Source: an uncultured Chthoniobacterales bacterium (GTDB lineage Bacteria; Verrucomicrobiota; Verrucomicrobiae; Chthoniobacterales; UBA10450). Taken from it: a stretch of 8,897 nucleotides of DNA. The position numbers were made by a program, and so were the translations under genes. Position 1 is the first letter of the stretch. The number at the start of each line of letters is the position of its first letter. The stretch is taken from the NCBI GenBank assembly GCA_955652855.1, contig CATPCN010000047.1, positions 1 to 8,897 of the forward strand, written 5' to 3'. Shown one piece after another: positions 1-8,897 of this stretch. The notes under the pieces are model-generated. The model was not told the origin of the DNA. It searched no databases and saw only the letters and a program-made list of their open reading frames with translations.

Positions 1-109
1 CCGCGACCTCGTTTGATGTGCTCATGTTTTCTTTCGTTTCATCGGCTCGAAGTTGCGCCGCGCCGAAAACAAAACCGAGCAGGGCGGTCGCTAAGATCGA
101 CATTTTCAT
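1..109 (-). CDS. Secreted protein of unknown function, N-terminal fragment with signal peptide
   Basis: Reading the minus strand from the ATG at 109 gives 36 codons without a stop before the left edge. The product starts MKMSILATALLGFVFGAAQL and continues RADETKENMSTSNEVA. This is a classical Sec signal peptide: a lysine at position 2, a hydrophobic core at about residues 4-18, and a probable signal peptidase I cut after LRA (residues 20-22), before DETKEN. The mature protein would begin acidic and polar and act outside the cytoplasm. An alternative start is the ATG at 103 (M3). No Shine-Dalgarno site is visible. It begins 30 bases after the carB stop on the same strand, so it could be read through from carB. 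Only the N-terminus is visible, so no family can be named. The codons for MSILA contain the repeated word TGTCGATCTTAGCG. Confidence 0.62.
   Translation of the reverse strand, partial: MKMSILATALLGFVFGAAQLRADETKENMSTSNEVA
93..102 (-). repeat. TGTCGATCTT word, copy 1
   Basis: Exact 10-mer on the minus strand, extended to ATGTCGATCTTAGCG (103 down to 89). It lies in the signal-peptide codons ATG TCG ATC TTA GCG of the left-edge gene, 38 bases past the carB stop. The same 15 bases, in the same frame, recur in the phosphoesterase gene at 6498-6512. Confidence 0.7.
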
Positions 110-139
110 TCTGACAAGTGACACGAACGCTGCGGCGTG

Positions 140-3100
140 TCACGCGGTCTTCGCGTGATATTCCTGTAAACTGCGCACCTGCAGCTTTCGTTTTTGCAAT
201 GACCGAATGCCGTTCGCGCTCGCCTGCGCCGCGCGCAAGGTCGTCATGATCGGAATTTTTTGCGCGAGCGCGGCGTTGCGGATCCTGACTTCATCTTCGC
301 GGGGAATTTTTCCGCTCGGTGTGTTGATGATGAAATTAATGTCGCCGTTCTTGACGCGATCGAGCACGTTGGGCCGGCCTTCGCGAAGCTTGAATACTTT
401 CGCCACCGGAATGCGCGCTTTGGCGAGCGTCTTCGCCGTTCCTTCCGTCGCAATAATTCCAAAGCCGAGACTGACAAATTCGCGCGCGATCGGCAGCACA
501 GCTTTCTTGTCGCTGTCTTTCACGCTGATGAAAACATTGCCCGAGGTGGGCAAGGCCGGCGGCGCGGCCATCTGCGATTTCGCGTAAGCGAGGCCAAGAT
601 CGACATCGATGCCCATGACTTCGCCGGTCGATTTCATTTCAGGTCCGAGTGCGATATCGATGCCTTGATAACGCAGAAACGGAAACACGGCTTCCTTCAC
701 AGAATAATGTTTCGGCATGATTTCCTTTGTAAAGTCGAGCTCGCGCAAAGTTTTTCCGGTCATCACTTTCGCGGCGAGCTTGGCCAGCGGCACACCGATC
801 GCCTTGCTCACAAACGGCACGGTGCGCGAGGCGCGCGGGTTTACTTCGAGCACATAAACTTCTTCGCCTTTGACGGCGAATTGCACGTTCATCAAGCCGC
901 GCACTTTTAGTTCTTGCGCCATCGCTTTCGTCGCAGTGGAAATTTCATCGAGAACTTTTTTCGACAAAGAAAATGTCGGAATCACGCAAGCGCTGTCGCC
1001 GCTGTGAATGCCGGCTTCCTCGATGTGTTCCATGATCGCGCCGATCACGGTCATCTCACCATCGGCAATGCAATCCACATCAACTTCGATCGCATCTTCC
1101 AAGAAACGATCGACCAACACCGGGCGGTCCGGCGTCACTTCGATCGCGCTCGCCATGTAACGGCGCAGATCTTCTTCGTTATAAACCAACTCCATCGCGC
1201 GGCCGCCGAGGACAAACGATGGCCTAACGAGCACCGGATAACCAATTTTCTTTGCGATCGTGACAGCGTCATCGGTGTTCACCGCTGATCCGCTCGGCGT
1301 TTGGCGCAAACCGAGTTTGTCGAGCATCGCGGCGAATAATTGTCGATCTTCCGCCGTTTCGATGCTCTCCGGTTGCGTGCCGATGATCGGAACGCCGGCA
1401 TCTTTCAATCCTTCAGCAAGATTGAGTGGCGTTTGTCCACCGAACTGCACGATGACGCCCTCCGGCTTTTCTTGATCGAAAATGTTGAGCACGTCTTCGA
1501 GCGTGAGCGGTTCGAAATAAAGTTTGTCGCTCGTGTCGTAATCGGTCGAAACGGTTTCTGGATTTGAGTTCACCATGATCGTCTCGAATCCGAGCTCGCG
1601 CAGCGCGAAGGCCGCGTGCACGCAGCAGTAATCGAATTCGATTCCCTGACCGATGCGATTCGGGCCGCCGCCCAGGATCATGATCTTGCGCTTGCCGCTC
1701 TCGCGCCGCTCGTTCTCGTCACCGTAGGTCGAGTAGTAATAAGGAGTAAATGCTTCGAACTCCGCCGCGCAGGTATCAACGAGGCGATAAGTTGGCAAGA
1801 CGCCGAATTTTTTGCGGCCTTCGCGAATATGTATGTCGGGCGTCTGATAAAGCACGCCGAGTTGCCGATCGGAAAAGCCGAACTTTTTCACGTCGCGCAT
1901 GTATCGGCGAAGAATTGCGGCGTGCTCTTCCGGTGAATCCTTGCCGACATTCTTCGTCAACTCTTGCGCAGTCTGCGTTGGGATTTCCTGAGCCTTACTA
2001 ACAATATCCCGGATGTTGTGCAGAAACCACCTGTCGATCTTTGTCAGATCGAAGACCTCGTCGATCGACATTCCGTCCTGAAAAGCTTGTGCCAGATAAA
2101 AGATCCGGTCGGCGTTTGGAACTGAGAGTTTTAACCGCAACGTTTCTGGGTCGACGCGTTTCTCGGCGCCGTCTCCGCATAGACCGAAACGTTTGATCTC
2201 GAGCGAACGCAGCGCTTTTTGCAGCGCTTCCTTGAACGTGCGCCCGATCGCCATCGCTTCGCCTACGCTTTTCATTTGCGTCGTCAGCGTCGCATCGGCT
2301 TGCGGAAATTTTTCGAACGTGAACCGCGGCACTTTCACCACGCAGTAATCGATTGTCGGCTCGAAACATGCCGGTGTTTTGCGCGTGATGTCGTTTTTGA
2401 TTTCGTCTAGCGTGTAACCGACCGCGAGTTTTGCCGCGATCTTTGCAATCGGAAATCCGGTCGCTTTCGACGCGAGCGCGCTCGAACGCGAAACGCGCGG
2501 ATTCATTTCGATCACAACCATGCGGCCATTGTCGGGATTCACGGCGAACTGAATGTTTGAGCCTCCGGTCTCGACGCCGATCTCGCGAATGACGTCGAAC
2601 GCCGCGTCGCGCATCGATTGATATTCCTTGTCGGTCAGCGTTTGCACGGGCGCGACCGTGATCGAGTCGCCGGTGTGCACACCCATCGGATCGAAATTCT
2701 CGATCGAACAAACGACGACGCAGTTGTCCGCGCGGTCGCGCATGACCTCCATCTCGAACTCTTTCCAGCCGACGAGCGATTCTTCGATCAGCACTTCGTT
2801 GACCGGCGACAAATCCAGACCGCGCGATACGATTTCATCGAGCTCATCACGATTGTAGGCGATGCCGCCGCCAGAACCGCCCAGAGTGAAAGCGGGCCGA
2901 ATGATAAGCGGAAAGGTTCCGATTTCATCGACAATACGGTCGACGTCCGCCAACGAACGCGCGATTCCGGAGCGCGGAATGTCGAGACCGATCCGCAACA
3001 TCGCTTCTTTGAACAATTGTCGATCTTCGCCTTTCGCGATGGCTTGCGCGTTCGCGCCGATCAATTTCACGCCGTGTCGCGCGAGCGCGCCGTTGCGATT

Positions 3101-3406
3101 CAACGCCATCGCGGCATTGAGCGCGGTCTGCCCGCCCATGGTCGGAAGAAGCGCGTCCGGTTTTTCGCGCTCGATGATTGCTTCGATCACTTCGGCGGTG
3201 ATCGGCTCGATGTAAGTGCGATCGGCGAACTCAGGATCGGTCATGATCGTGGCCGGATTCGAATTGACGAGCACGACCTGGTAACCCTCTTCGCGCAGCG
3301 CCTTGCACGCTTGCACGCCGGAATAATCAAATTCGCAACCCTGCCCGATCACAATTGGACCGGAGCCGATGAGCAAAATCTTTTTGATCTGATCGTTCCG
3401 CGGCAT
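140..3406 (-). CDS. carB: Carbamoyl-phosphate synthase large subunit
   Basis: CarB makes carbamoyl phosphate from bicarbonate, two ATP and ammonia, the ammonia coming from glutamine split by CarA. The product feeds arginine and pyrimidine synthesis in the cytoplasm. The start is placed at ATG 3406, giving 1088 residues (E. coli has about 1073) and the family-like beginning [26 protein letters not shown] eight codons upstream (3430) is also open but not family-like. Both homologous halves are intact. The first has GSGPIVIGQ at 14-22, EDRQLF at 127-132 and the ATP-grasp loop [11 protein letters not shown] near 299-309. The second has [15 protein letters not shown] near 579-593, EDRQLF at 686-691 and [10 protein letters not shown]. 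An oligomerisation region lies between them. The C-terminal MGS-like allosteric domain spans about 956-1088, from [13 protein letters not shown]. One small oddity is [10 protein letters not shown] where GQACEFDYSG is usual. carA is not in the window. It sits 70 bases after the SufE-family gene on the same strand and may be co-transcribed with it. Four copies of the TGTCGATCTT word lie inside. Confidence 0.97.
596..605 (-). repeat. TGTCGATCTT word, copy 2
   Basis: Exact 10-mer on the minus strand inside carB, read as (T)GTC-GAT-CTT in the DVDLGLA segment just before the MGS-like domain. Its codon phase differs from that of copies 3-5. Confidence 0.7.
1341..1350 (+). repeat. TGTCGATCTT word, copy 3
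   Basis: Exact 10-mer on the plus strand, antisense to carB. It encodes the EDRQ of the second-half EDRQLF motif (GAA GAT CGA CAA) and is preceded by AT. Confidence 0.7.
2032..2041 (+). repeat. TGTCGATCTT word, copy 4
   Basis: Exact 10-mer antisense to carB, read as AAG ATC GAC A in KIDRWF (residues 456-461). Its codon phase differs from that of copies 3 and 5. Confidence 0.7.
3018..3027 (+). repeat. TGTCGATCTT word, copy 5
   Basis: Exact 10-mer antisense to carB, in the first-half EDRQLF motif. It uses the same codons as the paralogous site at 1341, so ancient internal duplication of carB could explain this one pair. It is preceded by AT. Confidence 0.7.
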
Positions 3407-3476
3407 CTTGCGCGCGGGATCATAGATCAAATCAGGCGAAGATCACGCGCGAATCGCGAATGCTTTGCGCGAGCGA

Positions 3477-3932
3477 TCACGCGACCGCCTGTGCGCGCTG
3501 ACGATCGAGATAGACTTTGCAGATGCCTTTAATGCGCGTGAGCACGTAGTAAATCGTCTGACTTCGCACGCGCACCAGCTCCGAGCCAACGATACGCGTG
3601 ACGAAATCGCTCGGAAGATCGAGAATCTCCTGCGGCGCTCTACCTTCGAGTCCCTTGCAAAGGATCGCGGTCATTGCCCGGGTGAGCGTTTGCACTTCCG
3701 GACCGAGCGTCATGCGAATCTGGGCCTTGCCCTCAGGATCGACATGAAGATAAACGCCAACCGTGTCCGCGCATTCTTCATCCTTGCGCACATCCTCCAG
3801 ATCGAACTTCTCGCCTACTCGCGGCTCCTGTTTTTTCGCGTTGTCCGCGTAAGCCACGAGCGTTTCGCGCCGCTCATCTTCGGGCAGCGACTCAAAGAGG
3901 TTGATGATATTGTTCAGCTTCTCTGGGTACAT
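3477..3932 (-). CDS. SufE-family sulfur-acceptor protein, divergent
   Basis: The 151-residue product matches the SufE fold in length and order: an N-terminal helix (NNIINLFESLP), a short hinge, a beta segment, then helices ending in RSQTIYYVLTRIKGICKVYL. SufE proteins accept persulfide sulfur from a cysteine desulfurase or sulfurtransferase on a loop cysteine and pass it on, classically for Fe-S cluster assembly. The candidate acceptor is Cys54 in DEECADTVGVYLHVD. In canonical SufE this loop is GCQSQVW. Here the residues after the cysteine are A-D, the loop appears about two residues longer than in the actinobacterial-type sequence I recall, and the tryptophan is absent. It follows the sseA-like sulfurtransferase by 54 bases on the same strand, which supports a shared sulfur-transfer role. 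The start is ATG 3932, with no obvious ribosome binding site. Family membership is fairly sure; the sulfur donor and target are inference. Confidence 0.85.
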   Translation of the reverse strand: MYPEKLNNIINLFESLPEDERRETLVAYADNAKKQEPRVGEKFDLEDVRKDEECADTVGVYLHVDPEGKAQIRMTLGPEVQTLTRAMTAILCKGLEGRAPQEILDLPSDFVTRIVGSELVRVRSQTIYYVLTRIKGICKVYLDRQRAQAVA

Positions 3933-3986
3933 CGACCAATCAGAATTTACCGCGGATTTAAACCGATGAGTACCACAGACAATTGT

Positions 3987-4853
<867 letters not shown>

Positions 4854-4994
4854 AGCCCTAAAACTTCAATCCGCTCGCCAGCGCGAGCAACAAGTTTCGC
4901 GGTGCTGAAGCCGCAGAACTCGCAGCTGTGGTACAAGACGGTGAACGATTGGGTCAATCAGTGGTGCGGACCAAATTGAGACGCAGCCGCTGTC
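4854..4994 (-). promoter_or_regulatory. Leader of the sulfurtransferase gene with a small hairpin
   Basis: This gene-free stretch lies between the sulfurtransferase start and repeat A. It contains a perfect 6-bp stem with a 4-base loop (GCTCGC-CAGC-GCGAGC, 4873-4888), 20 bases before the ATG. A weak promoter-like pair is TTGACC (minus strand, 4957-4952) and TGTACC (4935-4930), 16 bases apart; the second box matches the consensus at only three of six positions. No recognised riboswitch or binding site is seen. The promoter call is weak; the hairpin is directly visible but its function is unknown. Confidence 0.25.
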
Positions 4995-5099
4995 TGTCAT
5001 TCTGAGCGGAGCTTCGCGGATGCGAAGCGCAGTCGAAGAATCCCGTGGCGTTATTTTTTCGGTACCGCATCGGGATCCCTCGACTTCGCTCGGGATGAC
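4995..5099 (+). repeat. Palindromic dispersed repeat, copy A (helicase 3' side)
   Basis: An imperfect inverted repeat of about 105 bases. It opens TGTCATTCTGAGCG and closes CGCTCGGGATGAC. The arms AGTCGAAGAATCCCG and CGGGATCCCTCGACTTCG pair around a central spacer. The left arm carries an extra perfect hairpin, GCTTCGC-GGAT-GCGAAGC (5011-5028). Copy B at 6354-6451 shares both ends and both arms in the same orientation but has a different inner hairpin and spacer. This is the style of a non-autonomous REP/MITE-like element found widely in environmental bacterial genomes and often mistranslated as a small protein. It ends 8 bases before the helicase stop codon region, so its RNA hairpins could limit read-through into the sulfurtransferase gene or protect the helicase mRNA end (inference). 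Confidence 0.85.
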
Positions 5100-5109
5100 T
5101 GTCGATCTT
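5100..5109 (+). repeat. TGTCGATCTT word, copy 6
   Basis: Exact 10-mer, extended to TGTCGATCTTAGCG (5100-5113). It abuts the end of repeat A and overlaps the helicase stop codon, the TTA at 5108-5110 on the plus strand. Confidence 0.7.
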
Positions 5110-6325
5110 AGCGGCGTCGCCGCCCGAACGAATACCCGCGATGCGTTCGCCCGCCGCCGATGGCGCGCTTGCCGCCGGATGCGGACTCCGGTTCGAAGAG
5201 CACCGTGTAGAGATAGGGAAAGGTCTCGAGTTTGAGCCGCGGAATCTTTCGACCGATGAAACGCTCGATCGCCTGGAGCGCGGCAACTTCTTCGCCATTC
5301 ATGAGCGTAAATGCGTCGCCGACATTCTGCGCGCGGCCGGTGCGACCGATGCGATGCACATAATCTTCCGGATGCTCCGGCACGTCGTAGTTGATGACGT
5401 GACTCACGCCGGCGATGTCGAGACCGCGCGCAGCGATGTCGGTCGCAACCATCACTTCATATTTGCCGCTCTTAAAACCGTCGAGCGCTTCGATGCGCTC
5501 GCGTTGCGTGCGATTGGAATGAAGCACCGCCACGGAATGCTGGCCGGCTTTCAGTTTATGCGCGATCCGGTCCGCGCCGTGCTTGGTCCGAGAAAAAATT
5601 AGCGCGCTGTCGTAATTCGTGCGGTCGAGCAACGCCATGAGCAGATCGAATTTCTGTTCGGCCGCGACCGGATAGACTGCGTGTGTGACCGTCTCCGCGG
5701 GTGAACGCCGAACGCCGATCTCGACCAACTCCGGATCACGCAAGACCCACGCGGCGAGCCGCTCGATTTCCGGAGGCAACGTCGCGGAAAACAAAAGCGT
5801 TTGTCGATCTTTTGAAATTTTGTCCACGATTCGCCGGACATCGGGGAGAAATCCCATGTCGAGCATGCGATCGACTTCATCGAGCACGAGAATATTTACA
5901 TCGCGGAAATGCAGCGTCCCTTGTTCAAGATGATCGAGCAATCGGCCGGGTGTAGCGGCAAGCACATCGACACCGCGCTTCAAATCATCGCGCTGTTTCC
6001 CGTAACCGACGCCGCCGTGCACGACCGTGGCCCGCAAATTTGTAAAGCGACCATAATCGCGAAAAGCAGTCTCAACTTGCGCGGCGAGCTCACGCGTCGG
6101 TTCGAGCACGAGGCAGCGAAACGCACCGTGGTTAGCGAGCAGAGTCAAAATCGGCAGCGCAAACGCAGCAGTCTTGCCCGTGCCTGTTTGAGCGGTGCCG
6201 ATCAAATCTCTTCCGCCCAAAATGATTGGGAAGGCGCGAAGCTGAATCGGCGTCGGCTCCGTGAAGCCCATTGCCTGTGTGCCGCGCACGACTTCCGCCG
6301 ATAGTCCGAAATTATTAAATGACAC
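5108..6325 (-). CDS. rhlE: DEAD-box ATP-dependent RNA helicase, RhlE type
   Basis: A 405-residue two-domain helicase that uses ATP to unwind short RNA duplexes, probably in ribosome assembly or mRNA turnover. All motifs are in order: the Q motif GFTEPTPIQ (20-28), I AQTGTGKT (45-52), Ia PTRELA (76-81), Ib TPGR (125-128), II (149-152), III SAT (180-182), IV IFSRTK, V ATDIAARGLDI (294-304) and VI HRIGRTGR (324-331). Motif II reads DEVD, not DEAD; the catalytic D-E pair is kept. A short basic tail (SFGRRRR) follows the core, as in RhlE proteins. The start is placed at GTG 6325, which gives the family-like SFNNFGL beginning. A second GTG at 6352 would add nine residues that do not look conserved. 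Neither has a good ribosome binding site. The gene is bracketed by two direct copies of a palindromic repeat and is divergent from the phosphoesterase gene. Confidence 0.93.
   Translation of the reverse strand: MSFNNFGLSAEVVRGTQAMGFTEPTPIQLRAFPIILGGRDLIGTAQTGTGKTAAFALPILTLLANHGAFRCLVLEPTRELAAQVETAFRDYGRFTNLRATVVHGGVGYGKQRDDLKRGVDVLAATPGRLLDHLEQGTLHFRDVNILVLDEVDRMLDMGFLPDVRRIVDKISKDRQTLLFSATLPPEIERLAAWVLRDPELVEIGVRRSPAETVTHAVYPVAAEQKFDLLMALLDRTNYDSALIFSRTKHGADRIAHKLKAGQHSVAVLHSNRTQRERIEALDGFKSGKYEVMVATDIAARGLDIAGVSHVINYDVPEHPEDYVHRIGRTGRAQNVGDAFTLMNGEEVAALQAIERFIGRKIPRLKLETFPYLYTVLFEPESASGGKRAIGGGRTHRGYSFGRRRR
5802..5811 (+). repeat. TGTCGATCTT word, copy 7
   Basis: Exact 10-mer antisense to the helicase, encoding KDRQ just before motif III (GAT CGA CAA phase). 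This protein is unrelated to CarB, so common descent does not explain the match. Confidence 0.7.
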
Positions 6326-6353
6326 GCTGAAAGTTAGCGCCTCGCACCCCACT

Positions 6354-6451
6354 TGTCATTCTGAGCCCCGAAAACTTTTGGGGTCGAAGAATCCCGTTGC
6401 GTTGCCTTGAAGGTTGCGTCACGGGATGTCTCGACTTCGCTCGACATGACA
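6354..6451 (+). repeat. Palindromic dispersed repeat, copy B (divergent gene start)
   Basis: It opens TGTCATTCTGAGC and closes CTCGACTTCGCTCGACATGACA. Its arms TCGAAGAATCCCGT and ACGGGATGTCTCGACTTCG pair, and an inner hairpin (CCCCGAAAACTTTTGGGG, 6366-6383) sits where copy A has a different one. The change of inner stem sequence with retained pairing suggests that structure, not sequence, is maintained there. The element fills nearly all the space between the divergent helicase and phosphoesterase genes, and its last bases supply the apparent phosphoesterase ATG (6446). Promoters for both genes must lie in or across it (inference). Confidence 0.85.
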
Positions 6452-6889
6452 AGAGTCTTGGTGATGGCCGACACGCACAATCGACTGCCACAAAACATGT
6501 CGATCTTAGCGGAAGGCGCTGCTGAAATCTGGCACTTGGGCGATGTTTGTTCGCCGCACATTCTGGAAGTGATCGAAGAACTCGGTCCGCCGGTGACGGT
6601 CGTGCGCGGAAATTGCGACACCAATAACGAATGGCCGATCATTGTCGATCTTGTGCGCAGCGGTTTAAGATTTCGCCTGCAACATATTCCGCCGGAGCGT
6701 CCGCCGGAAAATGTCGATGTTGTCTTGCATGGTCACACGCACGTGTCGCGAAATGAAAAGCGCGGAAATGTCTTGTTCCTGAATCCGGGTTGCGTCACGC
6801 GGCCGAACTGCGGATCGCCACCGAGCGTGGCGTGGCTCGCAGTTGCGGCCGACGGAAAAATTGACTGGCGATTAAAAACTCTCCGCTGA
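6446..6889 (+). CDS. YfcE/MJ0936-type metallophosphoesterase
   Basis: A 147-residue cytoplasmic calcineurin-like phosphoesterase, the only plus-strand gene. The metal-site motifs are complete: DTH (9-11), GD (32-33), GNCD (55-58), His80 in LQHIP and GHTH (96-99), followed by the family's LNPGCVTRP (112-120). Such proteins bind two divalent metals and hydrolyse phosphodiesters. The natural substrate is unknown for most of the family. At 147 residues it is on the short side (E. coli YfcE is about 184). The start is ATG 6446 because MTRVLVMADTH matches the family's first strand. An upstream in-frame ATG (6407) would translate repeat B and is unlikely. No ribosome binding site is seen. It is divergent from the helicase and convergent with rplQ, whose stop lies 40 bases away. 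It holds two copies of the TGTCGATCTT word. Confidence 0.92.
   Translation: MTRVLVMADTHNRLPQNMSILAEGAAEIWHLGDVCSPHILEVIEELGPPVTVVRGNCDTNNEWPIIVDLVRSGLRFRLQHIPPERPPENVDVVLHGHTHVSRNEKRGNVLFLNPGCVTRPNCGSPPSVAWLAVAADGKIDWRLKTLR
6499..6508 (+). repeat. TGTCGATCTT word, copy 8
   Basis: Exact 10-mer within ATGTCGATCTTAGCG (6498-6512), encoding MSILA at residues 18-22 of the phosphoesterase. All 15 bases equal those in the left-edge signal peptide. Confidence 0.7.
6643..6652 (+). repeat. TGTCGATCTT word, copy 9
   Basis: Exact 10-mer encoding VDL in IIVDLVR of the phosphoesterase, (T)GTC-GAT-CTT phase, preceded by AT. It lies 144 bases from copy 8. Confidence 0.7.
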
Positions 6890-6899
6890 TGCTTTTTAT

Positions 6900-6909
6900 T
6901 GTCGATCTT
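6900..6909 (+). repeat. TGTCGATCTT word, copy 10, in the convergent gap
   Basis: Exact 10-mer in the 40-base gap between the phosphoesterase stop (6889) and the rplQ stop (6930), preceded by AT and a T-run. No stem-loop accompanies it, so it is not an obvious terminator half as uptake sequences often are. Confidence 0.7.
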
Positions 6910-6929
6910 TTGACGCGCCGGCAGCGAAA

Positions 6930-7472
6930 CTATTTCTTTTCGTCGCGCGATTTTCTACCGAATAACCGGCGCTTCCGTTTTGGTTTCGGCTCTTCGGCGA
7001 TGGGCTCTGATTGCTTGGCCGATTCTTCTCTCGCCGGAGCAGGTGTCGAAACAGTTTCGGCGCGTTCTTTTTTCGACGTAGTTTTTTCCTTCGCGACGTT
7101 TTCTTCTATCGCAGGCGGCGCGTCCACCCATTCGATGAAAGCGATGGGTGCAGAATCACTTTTGCGTGCGCCCAGTTTCACGATGCGCGTGTAACCGCCG
7201 TTGCGCTCCGTGGTGCGCGGCGCGATTTCGTCGAACAATTTATTTACAGCAACACTTTGCCGCAAAACCGAAAGCGCCGTGCGCCGTGCGTGCAGCGTTT
7301 CTTTTTTGCCGAGCGTCACCATTTTTTCTGCGAGCGGACGAACGGCTTTCGCTTTGGCCAGAGTGGTTTTGATGCGCTGATGCTCGATCAAACTGCACAC
7401 CTGGTTTGCGAGCAGCGCTTTGCGATGCTCGGCGGTGCGGCCCAGCTTGATCGTTTTCTTGCGATGTCTCAT
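6930..7472 (-). CDS. rplQ: Large ribosomal subunit protein L17 (bL17) with long charged tail
   Basis: bL17 binds 23S rRNA near the exit-tunnel side of the large subunit. The core is intact, from MRHRKKTIKLGRTAEHRKAL through LIEHQRIKTTLAKAKAVRPLAEKM and NGGYTRIVKLGARKSDSAP to FIEWVD at about residue 117. The protein is 180 residues, against about 115-130 in many bacteria. The extra 60 or so residues (about 120-180) are low-complexity: alternating lysine/glutamate, alanine/proline stretches, then a strongly basic end (KPKRKRRLFGRKSRDEKK). That tail is probably disordered and may contact rRNA (inference). The start ATG lies 18 bases after the rpoA stop, in the usual rpoA-rplQ order, so the two genes are surely co-transcribed. 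It converges with the plus-strand phosphoesterase; no strong terminator is visible between them. Confidence 0.96.
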   Translation of the reverse strand: MRHRKKTIKLGRTAEHRKALLANQVCSLIEHQRIKTTLAKAKAVRPLAEKMVTLGKKETLHARRTALSVLRQSVAVNKLFDEIAPRTTERNGGYTRIVKLGARKSDSAPIAFIEWVDAPPAIEENVAKEKTTSKKERAETVSTPAPAREESAKQSEPIAEEPKPKRKRRLFGRKSRDEKK

Positions 7473-7490
7473 GCGAATCTTTCGGCGCGC

Positions 7491-8537
7491 TTACGCTCTT
7501 TCTGGAGTGGCGGCTGCGCCATTCGAATTCGCGCCATCCACGCCAGCGGGCATGTCCACCAAGCCGGCATCAAATTTCATCCCGAGACCCAGACCGAGCT
7601 GCTGGAGCTTGTCTTTGATTTCGTTGAGCGATTTCTTTCCGAAGTTTCGATACTTCAACATCTCGGCTTCGGATTTTTGCGCGAGCTGGCCGACGGTGGT
7701 AATGTTCGCATTGTTCAAACAATTCGCGGCGCGCACACTGAGCTCGATCTCATTCACGCTCATGTTTAGCAACTTCTTGAGCTTCATGTTCTCCTCGCTC
7801 ACGCCAGCCGGCGTTTCATCGAACTCGATCACGTCCTCATTAAAGTTAACGAAAACATCGAGATGGTGACGCAAAATTGCCGACGCCTGCAGAAGCGCGT
7901 CCTCCGGCGTCAGGCGGCCGTCAGTCCAAACTTCCAGAAGGAGCTTGTCGTAATCGGTGCGCTGGCCAACGCGAGTGTTTTCCACGGCGTATTTCACGCG
8001 TGTCACTGGAGAAAAAATGGAATCAATCGGGATGAGCCCGATTGGCTGATCGGCGCGTTTGTTTTCTTCGCCAGTGGCGAAACCGCGACCGACCCGCACT
8101 TCGAGCTCGGCATCAAATTTGTGTTTCTTGTCGAGCGTGCAGATGACCTGCTTTGGGTTGAGCACTTCATAGCCCTGCGCGAGTTGAATATCGCCGGCCG
8201 TCACTTCACCGTCTTTGTTCACGGTGAGCGAAAGCTTGCGCGGCTCGTGATCGACCGCCTGGAATTTTACGCGCTTCAGATTTAGAACAATGTCGGTCAC
8301 GTCTTCGACGACGCCTGGCAAAGTCGCGAACTCGTGCTGCGCGGCGGTGATTTTCACCGCGGTGATGGCCGCTCCTTCGAGCGACGAAAGCAGCACGCGC
8401 CGGAGTGAATTTCCGACCGTGTGCCCGTAACCGGCTTCAAACGGTTCCGCGATAAATTTCGCGTAGGTTTCTGTGGCTGTTTCCTCGTCTTTGACGAGGG
8501 TTTTCGGCATCTCAAAACGACCGTAACGAACTGGCAT
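7491..8537 (-). CDS. rpoA: DNA-directed RNA polymerase alpha subunit
   Basis: A 348-residue RNA polymerase alpha subunit. The N-terminal domain (about 1-240) dimerises and nucleates core assembly, with the hallmark GNSLRRVLLSSLEGAAIT at 42-59 and TRVKYAVENTRVGQRTDYDKL at about 179-199. A linker leads to the C-terminal domain (about 258-320). There the UP-element and activator residues are conserved: Arg269, Asn272 and Cys273 (E. coli 265, 268, 269), then NFGKKSLNEIKDKL at 298-311. A short alanine/asparagine-rich tail ends the protein, which is slightly longer than the E. coli protein (329). The start ATG 8537 gives MPVRYGRFEMPK. A TTG 26 codons upstream (8615) is open but adds unconserved sequence. 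No strong ribosome binding site is seen. It is followed at once by rplQ. Upstream is a TPM-domain gene, not the usual rpsD. Confidence 0.97.
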   Translation of the reverse strand: MPVRYGRFEMPKTLVKDEETATETYAKFIAEPFEAGYGHTVGNSLRRVLLSSLEGAAITAVKITAAQHEFATLPGVVEDVTDIVLNLKRVKFQAVDHEPRKLSLTVNKDGEVTAGDIQLAQGYEVLNPKQVICTLDKKHKFDAELEVRVGRGFATGEENKRADQPIGLIPIDSIFSPVTRVKYAVENTRVGQRTDYDKLLLEVWTDGRLTPEDALLQASAILRHHLDVFVNFNEDVIEFDETPAGVSEENMKLKKLLNMSVNEIELSVRAANCLNNANITTVGQLAQKSEAEMLKYRNFGKKSLNEIKDKLQQLGLGLGMKFDAGLVDMPAGVDGANSNGAAATPERA

Positions 8538-8704
8538 GGGATTTGTACTTTCGGCTTGCCGGGTTACCCCTGGCGAGTGCGGCTTCGCGTCAAGTGACGA
8601 AGGCCCAGGGACCAACGGCGCAACTTCAAAAACTCGCTGCGGGACGTGGAATCAACACCAACTCCCGCAAGAATCAAGCGCAGATTTTTATGTCGATCTT
8701 TTCC
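8538..8704 (-). promoter_or_regulatory. Leader region upstream of rpoA
   Basis: A 167-base gene-free stretch between the TPM-domain stop and rpoA. A promoter-like pair on the minus strand is TTGAAA (8715-8710, in the TPM gene's last codons) and TAAAAA (8690-8685), spaced 19 bases. The boxes are fair but the spacing is long. A hairpin with a two-base bulge can form from CTTCGTC and GACGCGAAG (8602-8583), and a small palindrome GGGTTACCC lies at 8561-8569. These could be a leader structure for the rpoA-rplQ unit; no known S4-type autoregulatory leader can be asserted. Promoter confidence is low. Confidence 0.25.
8691..8700 (+). repeat. TGTCGATCTT word, copy 11
   Basis: Exact 10-mer in the rpoA leader, 4 bases past the TPM-domain gene's stop codon (8705-8707), preceded by TTTTTA. 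It falls in the spacer of the weak promoter-like pair. Confidence 0.7.
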
Positions 8705-8897
8705 TCAACTTTCAATGATCGCATCCGGGAGCTCGTTCCCGCCGGTCGCTTTCTTCGGGAAACGCTGGGCGAGAAGTTTTCCTGTTTCTTCAATCGCTTC
8801 CACGAGCGCGCGGCTGAAGTTTTCGTTTTGAAAATGCGCGCGCATTGAGTCCACCAGTCGTTGCCAGAATTGTTCGCCGCACTTTTCATGCACGCCC
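8705..8897 (-). CDS. TPM-domain (TLP18.3/DUF477) protein, C-terminal fragment
   Basis: The minus-strand frame is open from the right edge to TGA 8705-8707 and gives the last 63 or so residues of a protein. It begins GVHEKCGEQFWQ and runs through MRAHFQNENFSRALVEAIE to LAQRFPKKATGGNELPD. This matches the end of the TPM domain (the TLP18.3/Psb32/MOLO-1 fold, DUF477): the GVHEKVGxxFW strand and helix start, the F...F...L helix, then HFP and NELPD. The small bacterial members with this ending are often membrane-associated or periplasmic and of unclear biochemical role. The N-terminal part lies beyond the window, so length and any signal peptide cannot be judged. It is on the same strand as rpoA, 167 bases upstream, an unusual neighbour for rpoA. 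Confidence 0.8.
   Translation of the reverse strand, partial: GVHEKCGEQFWQRLVDSMRAHFQNENFSRALVEAIEETGKLLAQRFPKKATGGNELPDAIIES

Follow-up and report, generated by a model that had tools for sequence, protein, structure and literature searches.

The analysed window, a stretch of 8,897 nucleotides from an uncultured Chthoniobacterales bacterium (contig CATPCN010000047.1, positions 1 to 8,897), encodes the large subunit of carbamoyl-phosphate synthase (carB, 140..3430, minus strand), which served for the ortholog and tree tests, together with a rhodanese-type sulfurtransferase, a DEAD-box helicase most similar to RhlE, a phosphodiesterase of the YfcE type, L17 and rpoA. The section at 3477-3932 we take to resemble SufE, with no NCBIfam match. 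Distributed over this region is the 10-mer TGTCGATCTT, the subject of this report, which differs from its reverse complement AAGATCGACA and is thus non-palindromic. It is present in 11 exact copies, of which nine are read on the plus strand and two on the minus strand; no other 10-mer of the window is as frequent, the runner-up occurring five times.

Seven of the 11 copies lie within reading frames, four in carB, one in rhlE and two in yfcE, and three codon phases are used. The carB copies are located at 596..605 (minus strand, carB site 2825, DVDL codons), 1341..1350 (plus, site 2080, EDRQ codons), 2032..2041 (plus, site 1389, KID codons) and 3018..3027 (plus, site 403, EDRQ codons). The rhlE copy is found at 5802..5811 (plus, site 541, KDRQ codons), and the yfcE copies at 6498..6507 (plus, site 91, MSIL codons) and 6643..6652 (plus, site 236, IVDL codons). 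The other four are placed outside genes or across a gene end: at 93..102 (minus, outside the called genes, followed by AGCG), at 5100..5109 (plus, overlapping the rhlE stop codon and followed by AGCGG), at 6900..6909 (plus, intergenic between yfcE and the L17 gene) and at 8691..8700 (plus, upstream of rpoA). An intergenic repeat type, CATTCTGAGC...GAAGAATCCC, is present at 4995-5099 and 6355-6455 of the window and has many matches in relatives; the copy at 5100 starts directly after it.

Markov models of order 1, 2 and 3 predict 0.035, 0.06 and 0.13 exact copies in the window, respectively. With up to one mismatch allowed, 14 copies are counted, compared to a mean of 1.04 and a maximum of 5 in 200 shuffled sequences; the three one-mismatch forms are located at 3615, 3735 and 6712. 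The base before the word (position -1) is A or T at nine of the 11 copies, and ATTGTCGATCTT occurs four times. The excess over expectation, the three codon phases with further copies outside genes, and the preceding A or T with four copies of ATTGTCGATCTT had all been described in the first-pass annotation of the window and have been confirmed. Ten of its 11 positions were also correct, the one given as 6499 being 6498, as were two of its three one-mismatch positions, the third lying at 3735 and not at 3737. The 9:2 strand bias to which it pointed is real in the window, but is not significant (two-sided p 0.065) and is absent across the word-bearing genomes.

Genome-wide counts have been obtained from relatives of the window, at about 80% nucleotide identity. 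Among genome contigs, the closest carB (86% amino-acid identity) belongs to L001, a Chthoniobacterales metagenome-assembled genome (genome G001). In the family of G001, represented by 83 genomes, TGTCGATCTT occurs at least 100 times in 46 genomes, at least 300 times in 24 and at least 1,000 times in six; the highest count, 4,653 copies in 2.9 Mb, was found in G038, and G047 holds 1,509. The same word read backwards, used as a control, gave 0-3 copies per strand in the family. The 37 family genomes with fewer than 100 copies have a median density of 8.3 per Mb. A sample of 288 genomes of the phylum includes two from this family, which are conspicuous for their counts; the remaining 286 hold 57 copies or fewer. 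An unsupervised search returned TGTCGATCTT as the top-scoring 10-mer in all seven word-bearing relatives checked (G038, G039, G045, G006, G066, G054 and G061). Both strands are used equally, with 12,614 and 12,473 copies over the 46 genomes that have 100 copies or more (p 0.38), and the balance holds in each of seven singly tested genomes (the six with at least 1,000 copies and G046; p 0.22-0.97). The 9:2 ratio of the window is therefore attributed to chance.

The word-poor genomes G022, G024, G026, G036, G040 and G081 revealed no equally dense TGTCGATCTT-related word in a top-k-mer search of 46-200 kb samples, nor did initial short samples, each of 2-20 kb, from 20 genomes. The commonest one-mismatch form of TGTCGATCTT reached two copies in the G081 sample and three in the G022 sample. 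As separate observations, 100 kb of G036 contig C1 (L134, L165-L168) contain 16 copies of AACGTCGAAC (0.4 expected) and 10 of AAGGACCTCA (0.1 expected), which may represent additional words or belong to a repeat family, and 100 kb of G026 contig C1 (L129, L169-L172) contain 14 copies of AAGCTCCAA (0.8 expected).

The history of the word has been followed in a carB tree in which the window was placed with 28 family genomes and three outgroups, based on projected alignments in which nine genomes have 32-77% coverage. Of the 30 genomes searched for carB, G002 and G010 were left out, little or no carB having been found in them, and 18 of the 46 genomes that reach 100 copies are included in the tree. 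The window, these 18 word-rich genomes and G081 are united in one split with a support of 0.954, whereas the placement of G001 as its sister is weak (support 0.449). Genomes outside this clade hold 4-26 copies per Mb. Two members inside it are sparse, G081 with 74 copies (20 per Mb) and G007 with 147 (52 per Mb), and their low density is read as decay.

Retention at orthologous sites has been examined by comparing seven genes of the window with their counterparts in 13 word-bearing relatives and in G001, not all genes being available in all genomes. In comparisons across two clades sharing about 80% identity, the partner has the exact word at 78 of 123 sites, compared to 13% of the control windows; where the amino acids are conserved, the proportion rises to 72 of 81 (control 19%). 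Seen from the window, 45 of 80 word sites are exact in the other genomes and, in the reverse direction, 45 of 61 (control 14%). Within the first closer group 56 of 74 sites are exact (control 35%), and the smallest excess was observed within clade 2, at 89-94% identity, with 18 of 26 (69%) compared to 54%. None of 52 sites is exact in the word-poor G001 (control 9%). With one genome per lineage and controls matched in phase and GC content, 90 of 121 comparisons with conserved amino acids, drawn from seven sites, are exact, while 24 were expected and 41 was the maximum in 20,000 draws; these pairs are not independent, because there are 14 distinct sites in all, seven of them in at least two lineages. 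At the level of single sites, the carB copies at 596 and 3018 are exact in 10 of 13 word-bearing relatives compared and in 10 of 12 with sequence, respectively, and the yfcE copy at 6643 in seven of nine. The rhlE copy at 5802 is shared by G038 only, among 12 relatives compared, and at the yfcE site 91 the G038 word is shifted one base on, in a different register.

The structure and placement of the word have been characterized in G038, where, as in G039 and G040, genes were called with our own simple gene caller. In 400 kb of this genome 491 copies were counted (7.2 expected), 252 and 239 on the two strands, and the running strand excursion stays inside the random-walk range, with no strand runs. 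Relative to genes the orientation is equally balanced (199:194), and all six codon phases are used. Outside the conjugative element described below, the density is 3.2 per kb in intergenic and 1.5 per kb in genic sequence. Protein constraint as the cause of the word was rejected on account of the six codon phases and the intergenic copies. Of the 30 forms with a single mismatch, 22 occur no more often than expected, and the marked excesses concern the last three bases (TGTCGATCTA, 20 compared to 1.0 expected; TGTCGATGTT, 22 to 3.7; TGTCGATCCT, 13 to 1.5), with a two-fold excess of the base-2 variant TCTCGATCTT (10 to 5.1).

A weak flank, mostly upstream, extends the word in G038 to approximately AAWTGNARW-TGTCGATCTT-GC. 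Position -1 is A or T in 96% of the copies; this preference, together with a G at -5 and another at +10, is seen again between genes and in each of the five coding classes that have 42-128 copies, the sixth having just 6 copies. At -3 an A and at +11 a C likewise recur between genes and in four of the five classes, and T is favoured at -6 throughout. The flank is shared by intergenic and coding copies and is therefore mostly a property of the motif, not of codons. Neisserial DNA uptake sequences (DUS) form inverted pairs at gene ends; in G038 the density at convergent gene ends (2.75 per kb) is not enriched compared to that between tandem genes (2.71 per kb), inverted pairs are few, and no gene-end inverted repeats of the Neisseria type were seen.

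What G038 possesses instead is tandem pairs. In 620 kb with 864 words (L098-L117, L217-L227), 52 same-strand pairs are separated by 15 or 16 bp, while about 1.5 are expected by our own arithmetic. In 618 kb from other word-bearing genomes (232 words), same-strand pairs up to 150 bp apart number three, and none of them has the 15- or 16-bp spacing; the sequences listed for G002 and G003 contain one such pair each. Among same-strand pairs at 21-110 bp, helical phasing with a period near 11 bp seems to occur in one part of G038 only (first 400 kb, n=18, R 0.76) and is graded as suggestive, because a further 220 kb gave a weaker value (n=12, R 0.44). A search of viral contigs for the tandem pair returned no matches, a result of little weight, as the collection may hold no viruses of these hosts.

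The only long gap in the distribution of TGTCGATCTT along the 400 kb of G038 coincides with an integrative conjugative element roughly 108 kb long, located on contig C14 at 350,904-459,471 (L110:904 to L115:9471) between two tRNA-Thr genes. These genes are similar but not identical, so that the ends of the element are approximate. Twenty proteins from the element and its edges were scanned. Matches were obtained to TrbI, to a coupling protein resembling TrwB and to a TrwC relaxase; further matches include an Mrr-type nuclease, multicopper oxidases and, alongside outer-membrane partners, two efflux proteins of the AcrB type. The element contains one copy of TGTCGATCTT, compared to 490 in the remaining 291 kb, and the next longest gap is 5.3 kb. 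The near absence from conjugative islands is described for one island. In the Neisseriaceae, stretches without the resident uptake word have served to find such elements (PMC7371117).

A second word, TCGTTAGGC, unrelated to TGTCGATCTT and likewise no palindrome, is over-represented in seven genomes: G043 (4,605 copies), G042 (2,754), G044 (2,183), G037 (2,147), G040 (1,980), G038 (1,802) and G041 (1,410), with 20-45 copies per strand for its backward-read control. Its density reaches about 1.07 per kb in G043, the strands are about equal, and in the phylum sample outside the family (285 genomes) it is found at most 133 times. It is mostly genic in G040 and in G038 (167 of 192 copies), and its identification with an integron attC core was rejected on the latter count. 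Outside the element of G038 its net strand excess amounts to 17 of 181, equivalent to about 1.3 standard deviations, and the largest excursion is 23, so that no clear bias is seen; it is depleted in the element (0.087 per kb in 80 kb, compared to 0.674 in 500 kb). Six of these genomes, G037 and G040-G044, are poor in TGTCGATCTT (19-29 copies), and the family therefore seems to hold two unrelated words, both of which are present in G038.

The genes of a transformation machinery are widespread in the family. ComEC was identified in 76 and DprA in 74 of the 83 genomes, and both PilM and PilT in all 23 genomes tested for them, 22 of which exceed the curated cut-off in either case. Of the competence genes which the first-pass annotation had suggested looking for, ComEC was found; ComEA gave no match above the cut-off, and the pilin-motif scan described below gave no receptor candidate linked to the word.

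Taken together, these features make it probable that TGTCGATCTT serves one clade of Chthoniobacterales as a DNA-uptake signal in natural transformation. The first-pass annotation had proposed a genome signal word, and family-wide enrichment, unsupervised recovery, ortholog retention and near absence from the conjugative element bear this out; of its alternatives, the uptake sequence fits. The genome-wide excess, the balanced strands, the spread over genic and intergenic sequence, the exact retention, the near absence from one conjugative element, the single clade in the carB tree and the presence of machinery genes are observed; from them we infer sequence-specific uptake, its receptor, the drive and a working machinery. 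The proposed mechanism would act as follows: (i) a surface receptor on the type IV pilus or competence machine, probably a minor pilin, would bind TGTCGATCTT in either orientation on incoming double-stranded DNA; (ii) ComEC would pass one strand inward, and DprA and RecA would recombine it into the chromosome; (iii) word-bearing fragments would be taken up more often, word alleles would win site by site, and copies would therefore accumulate and stay exact across the resident chromosome; (iv) DNA delivered by conjugation would arrive without the word.

Several observations weigh against this reading. The relative with the closest carB, G001, has just 11 copies of TGTCGATCTT in 2.0 Mb, which at first sight does not agree with it, and inside the word-rich clade the density varies 80-fold, from 20 to 1,604 per Mb. 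Even spacing is reported for some uptake words; for TGTCGATCTT it is not established, the variance/mean ratio per 2 kb in G038 being 0.74, slightly below the Poisson value, and the coefficient of variation of the gaps 1.00, as if random. We know of no counterpart of the tandem 15/16-bp pairs in genomes with DUS or with the uptake signal sequences (USS) of Pasteurellaceae. Matches to a ComEA-type HHH domain are weak (38 of 83 genomes, none above the curated cut-off), and a pilin-motif scan of 20 stretches, 17 from word-rich and three from word-poor genomes, revealed pseudopilin-like sets with no word-linked receptor candidate. ComEC, DprA, PilM and PilT are equally present in word-poor genomes; the machinery therefore does not predict the word and allows uptake without proving it. 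The word-free element shows only that the word is tied to the resident lineage, as other explanations predict as well.

The most serious of these explanations, although an unlikely one, is a system of the HIP (highly iterated palindrome) type, in which a methylase and strand-directed repair or conversion inside the cell would create and keep the word, a process proposed for HIP1 in cyanobacteria. TGTCGATCTT contains GATC and TCGA, and TGTCGATCTT and TCGTTAGGC may replace each other, as HIP1, genome-wide and lineage-dependent in cyanobacteria, is seemingly replaced by another word in some of them (PMC4390886). HIP words are palindromes tied to methylases specific for them (PMC4390886), while TGTCGATCTT and TCGTTAGGC are both non-palindromic and a one-sided flank is preferred. 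Somewhat less likely still is a binding site for an unoriented chromosome-organising protein, such as a nucleoid-associated or occlusion factor. The spread without orientation would suit it, and the tandem pairs of G038 would suit a protein that binds as a pair; on the other hand, thousands of exact 10-mers, mostly in coding sequence, go far beyond what is known for such factors, the density has fallen in G081 and G007 within the clade, and the sole long gap in 400 kb is a conjugative element. The oriented recombination or segregation word (Chi or KOPS) considered in the first-pass annotation is very improbable: it has the local 9:2 ratio of the window in its favour, but strand balance prevails in seven single genomes, in the sum of 46 genomes, throughout 400 kb of G038 and with respect to gene direction, and such readings therefore fall, replichore orientation having been judged from strand balance in genomes that are not closed. 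A chance cluster or a dispersed repeat family can practically be dismissed: the excess is seen genome-wide in relatives, where neither of the two signs of chance named in the first-pass annotation (counts near the Markov expectation, free drift of orthologous sites) appeared, 90 of 121 comparisons being exact while 24 were expected, and beyond the word only the weak flank recurs.

If TGTCGATCTT is indeed an uptake signal, a wider reading may tentatively be considered, although we regard it as doubtful: a third independent origin of sequence-specific uptake, in Verrucomicrobiota, with a changing vocabulary. One clade would read TGTCGATCTT and other family genomes TCGTTAGGC, and G038, carrying both, might represent a switch caught in progress. 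The tandem spacing of 15 or 16 bp in G038 corresponds to about one and a half turns of the helix, as if the reader might bind as a pair. The open-licence literature yielded no paper on an uptake word in Verrucomicrobiota or Chthoniobacter, the sole title returned being a review of gene transfer in metagenomes; among the titles listed by broader searches on uptake words and on Udaeobacter with competence, none names an uptake word in another phylum, and the listed papers matching TGTCGATCTT itself are, judging by their titles, unrelated. To our knowledge, no phylum besides that of Pasteurellaceae and Neisseriaceae is known to have uptake words, and TGTCGATCTT would be new for Verrucomicrobiota. 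Uptake words are described for these two families (PMC5031613) and have been linked to mucosal life (PMC7811141). An independent origin would make the question of why such words evolve testable by comparison, and would suggest gene exchange by transformation in uncultured Chthoniobacterales. Word-free stretches would offer a simple marker of foreign DNA in their genomes.

Compared to known systems, TGTCGATCTT shares with Chi and KOPS the character of a short, exact, over-represented word, but these are oriented along the chromosome, whereas TGTCGATCTT is strand-balanced. HIP1 resembles it in being genome-wide and lineage-dependent, with another word in its place in some genomes (PMC4390886); the difference is that HIP1 is a palindrome linked to methylases and TGTCGATCTT is not palindromic. 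The pattern of TGTCGATCTT matches that of DUS and USS in the features tested, bar the sequence, the gene-end inverted pairs and the tandem pairs, and by analogy it may work like an uptake sequence. Like the USS of Pasteurellaceae, it has a core word with a weak extended flank, although the sequence is unrelated and the flank of TGTCGATCTT is mostly upstream. Its density is also near one per kb, the mean USS spacing in Haemophilus influenzae being about 1,000 bp (PMC7811141); for this family, which has divergent USS dialects, the predicted receptor is the minor pilin PpdA/ComN (PMC12616744). The neisserial DUS, ATGCCGTCTGAA, is unlike TGTCGATCTT and belongs to another phylum. In contrast to it, TGTCGATCTT shows no excess at convergent ends and few inverted pairs, with the tandem pairs of G038 instead, and the dialects of one word stand against two unrelated words in the family of G001. 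The DUS of Neisseriaceae, read by the minor pilin ComP, has about 1,900 copies in Neisseria meningitidis and Neisseria gonorrhoeae and 5,918 in the 2.4 Mb of Kingella oralis (PMC3630211), a density like that of the 4,653 copies in the 2.9 Mb of G038. The likeness lies in a 10-12-mer at up to more than one copy per kb, strand-balanced, genic as well as intergenic, exact and lineage-dependent, which is missing from a conjugative element and accompanied by genes for a pilus, ComEC and DprA (PMC3630211, PMC7371117).

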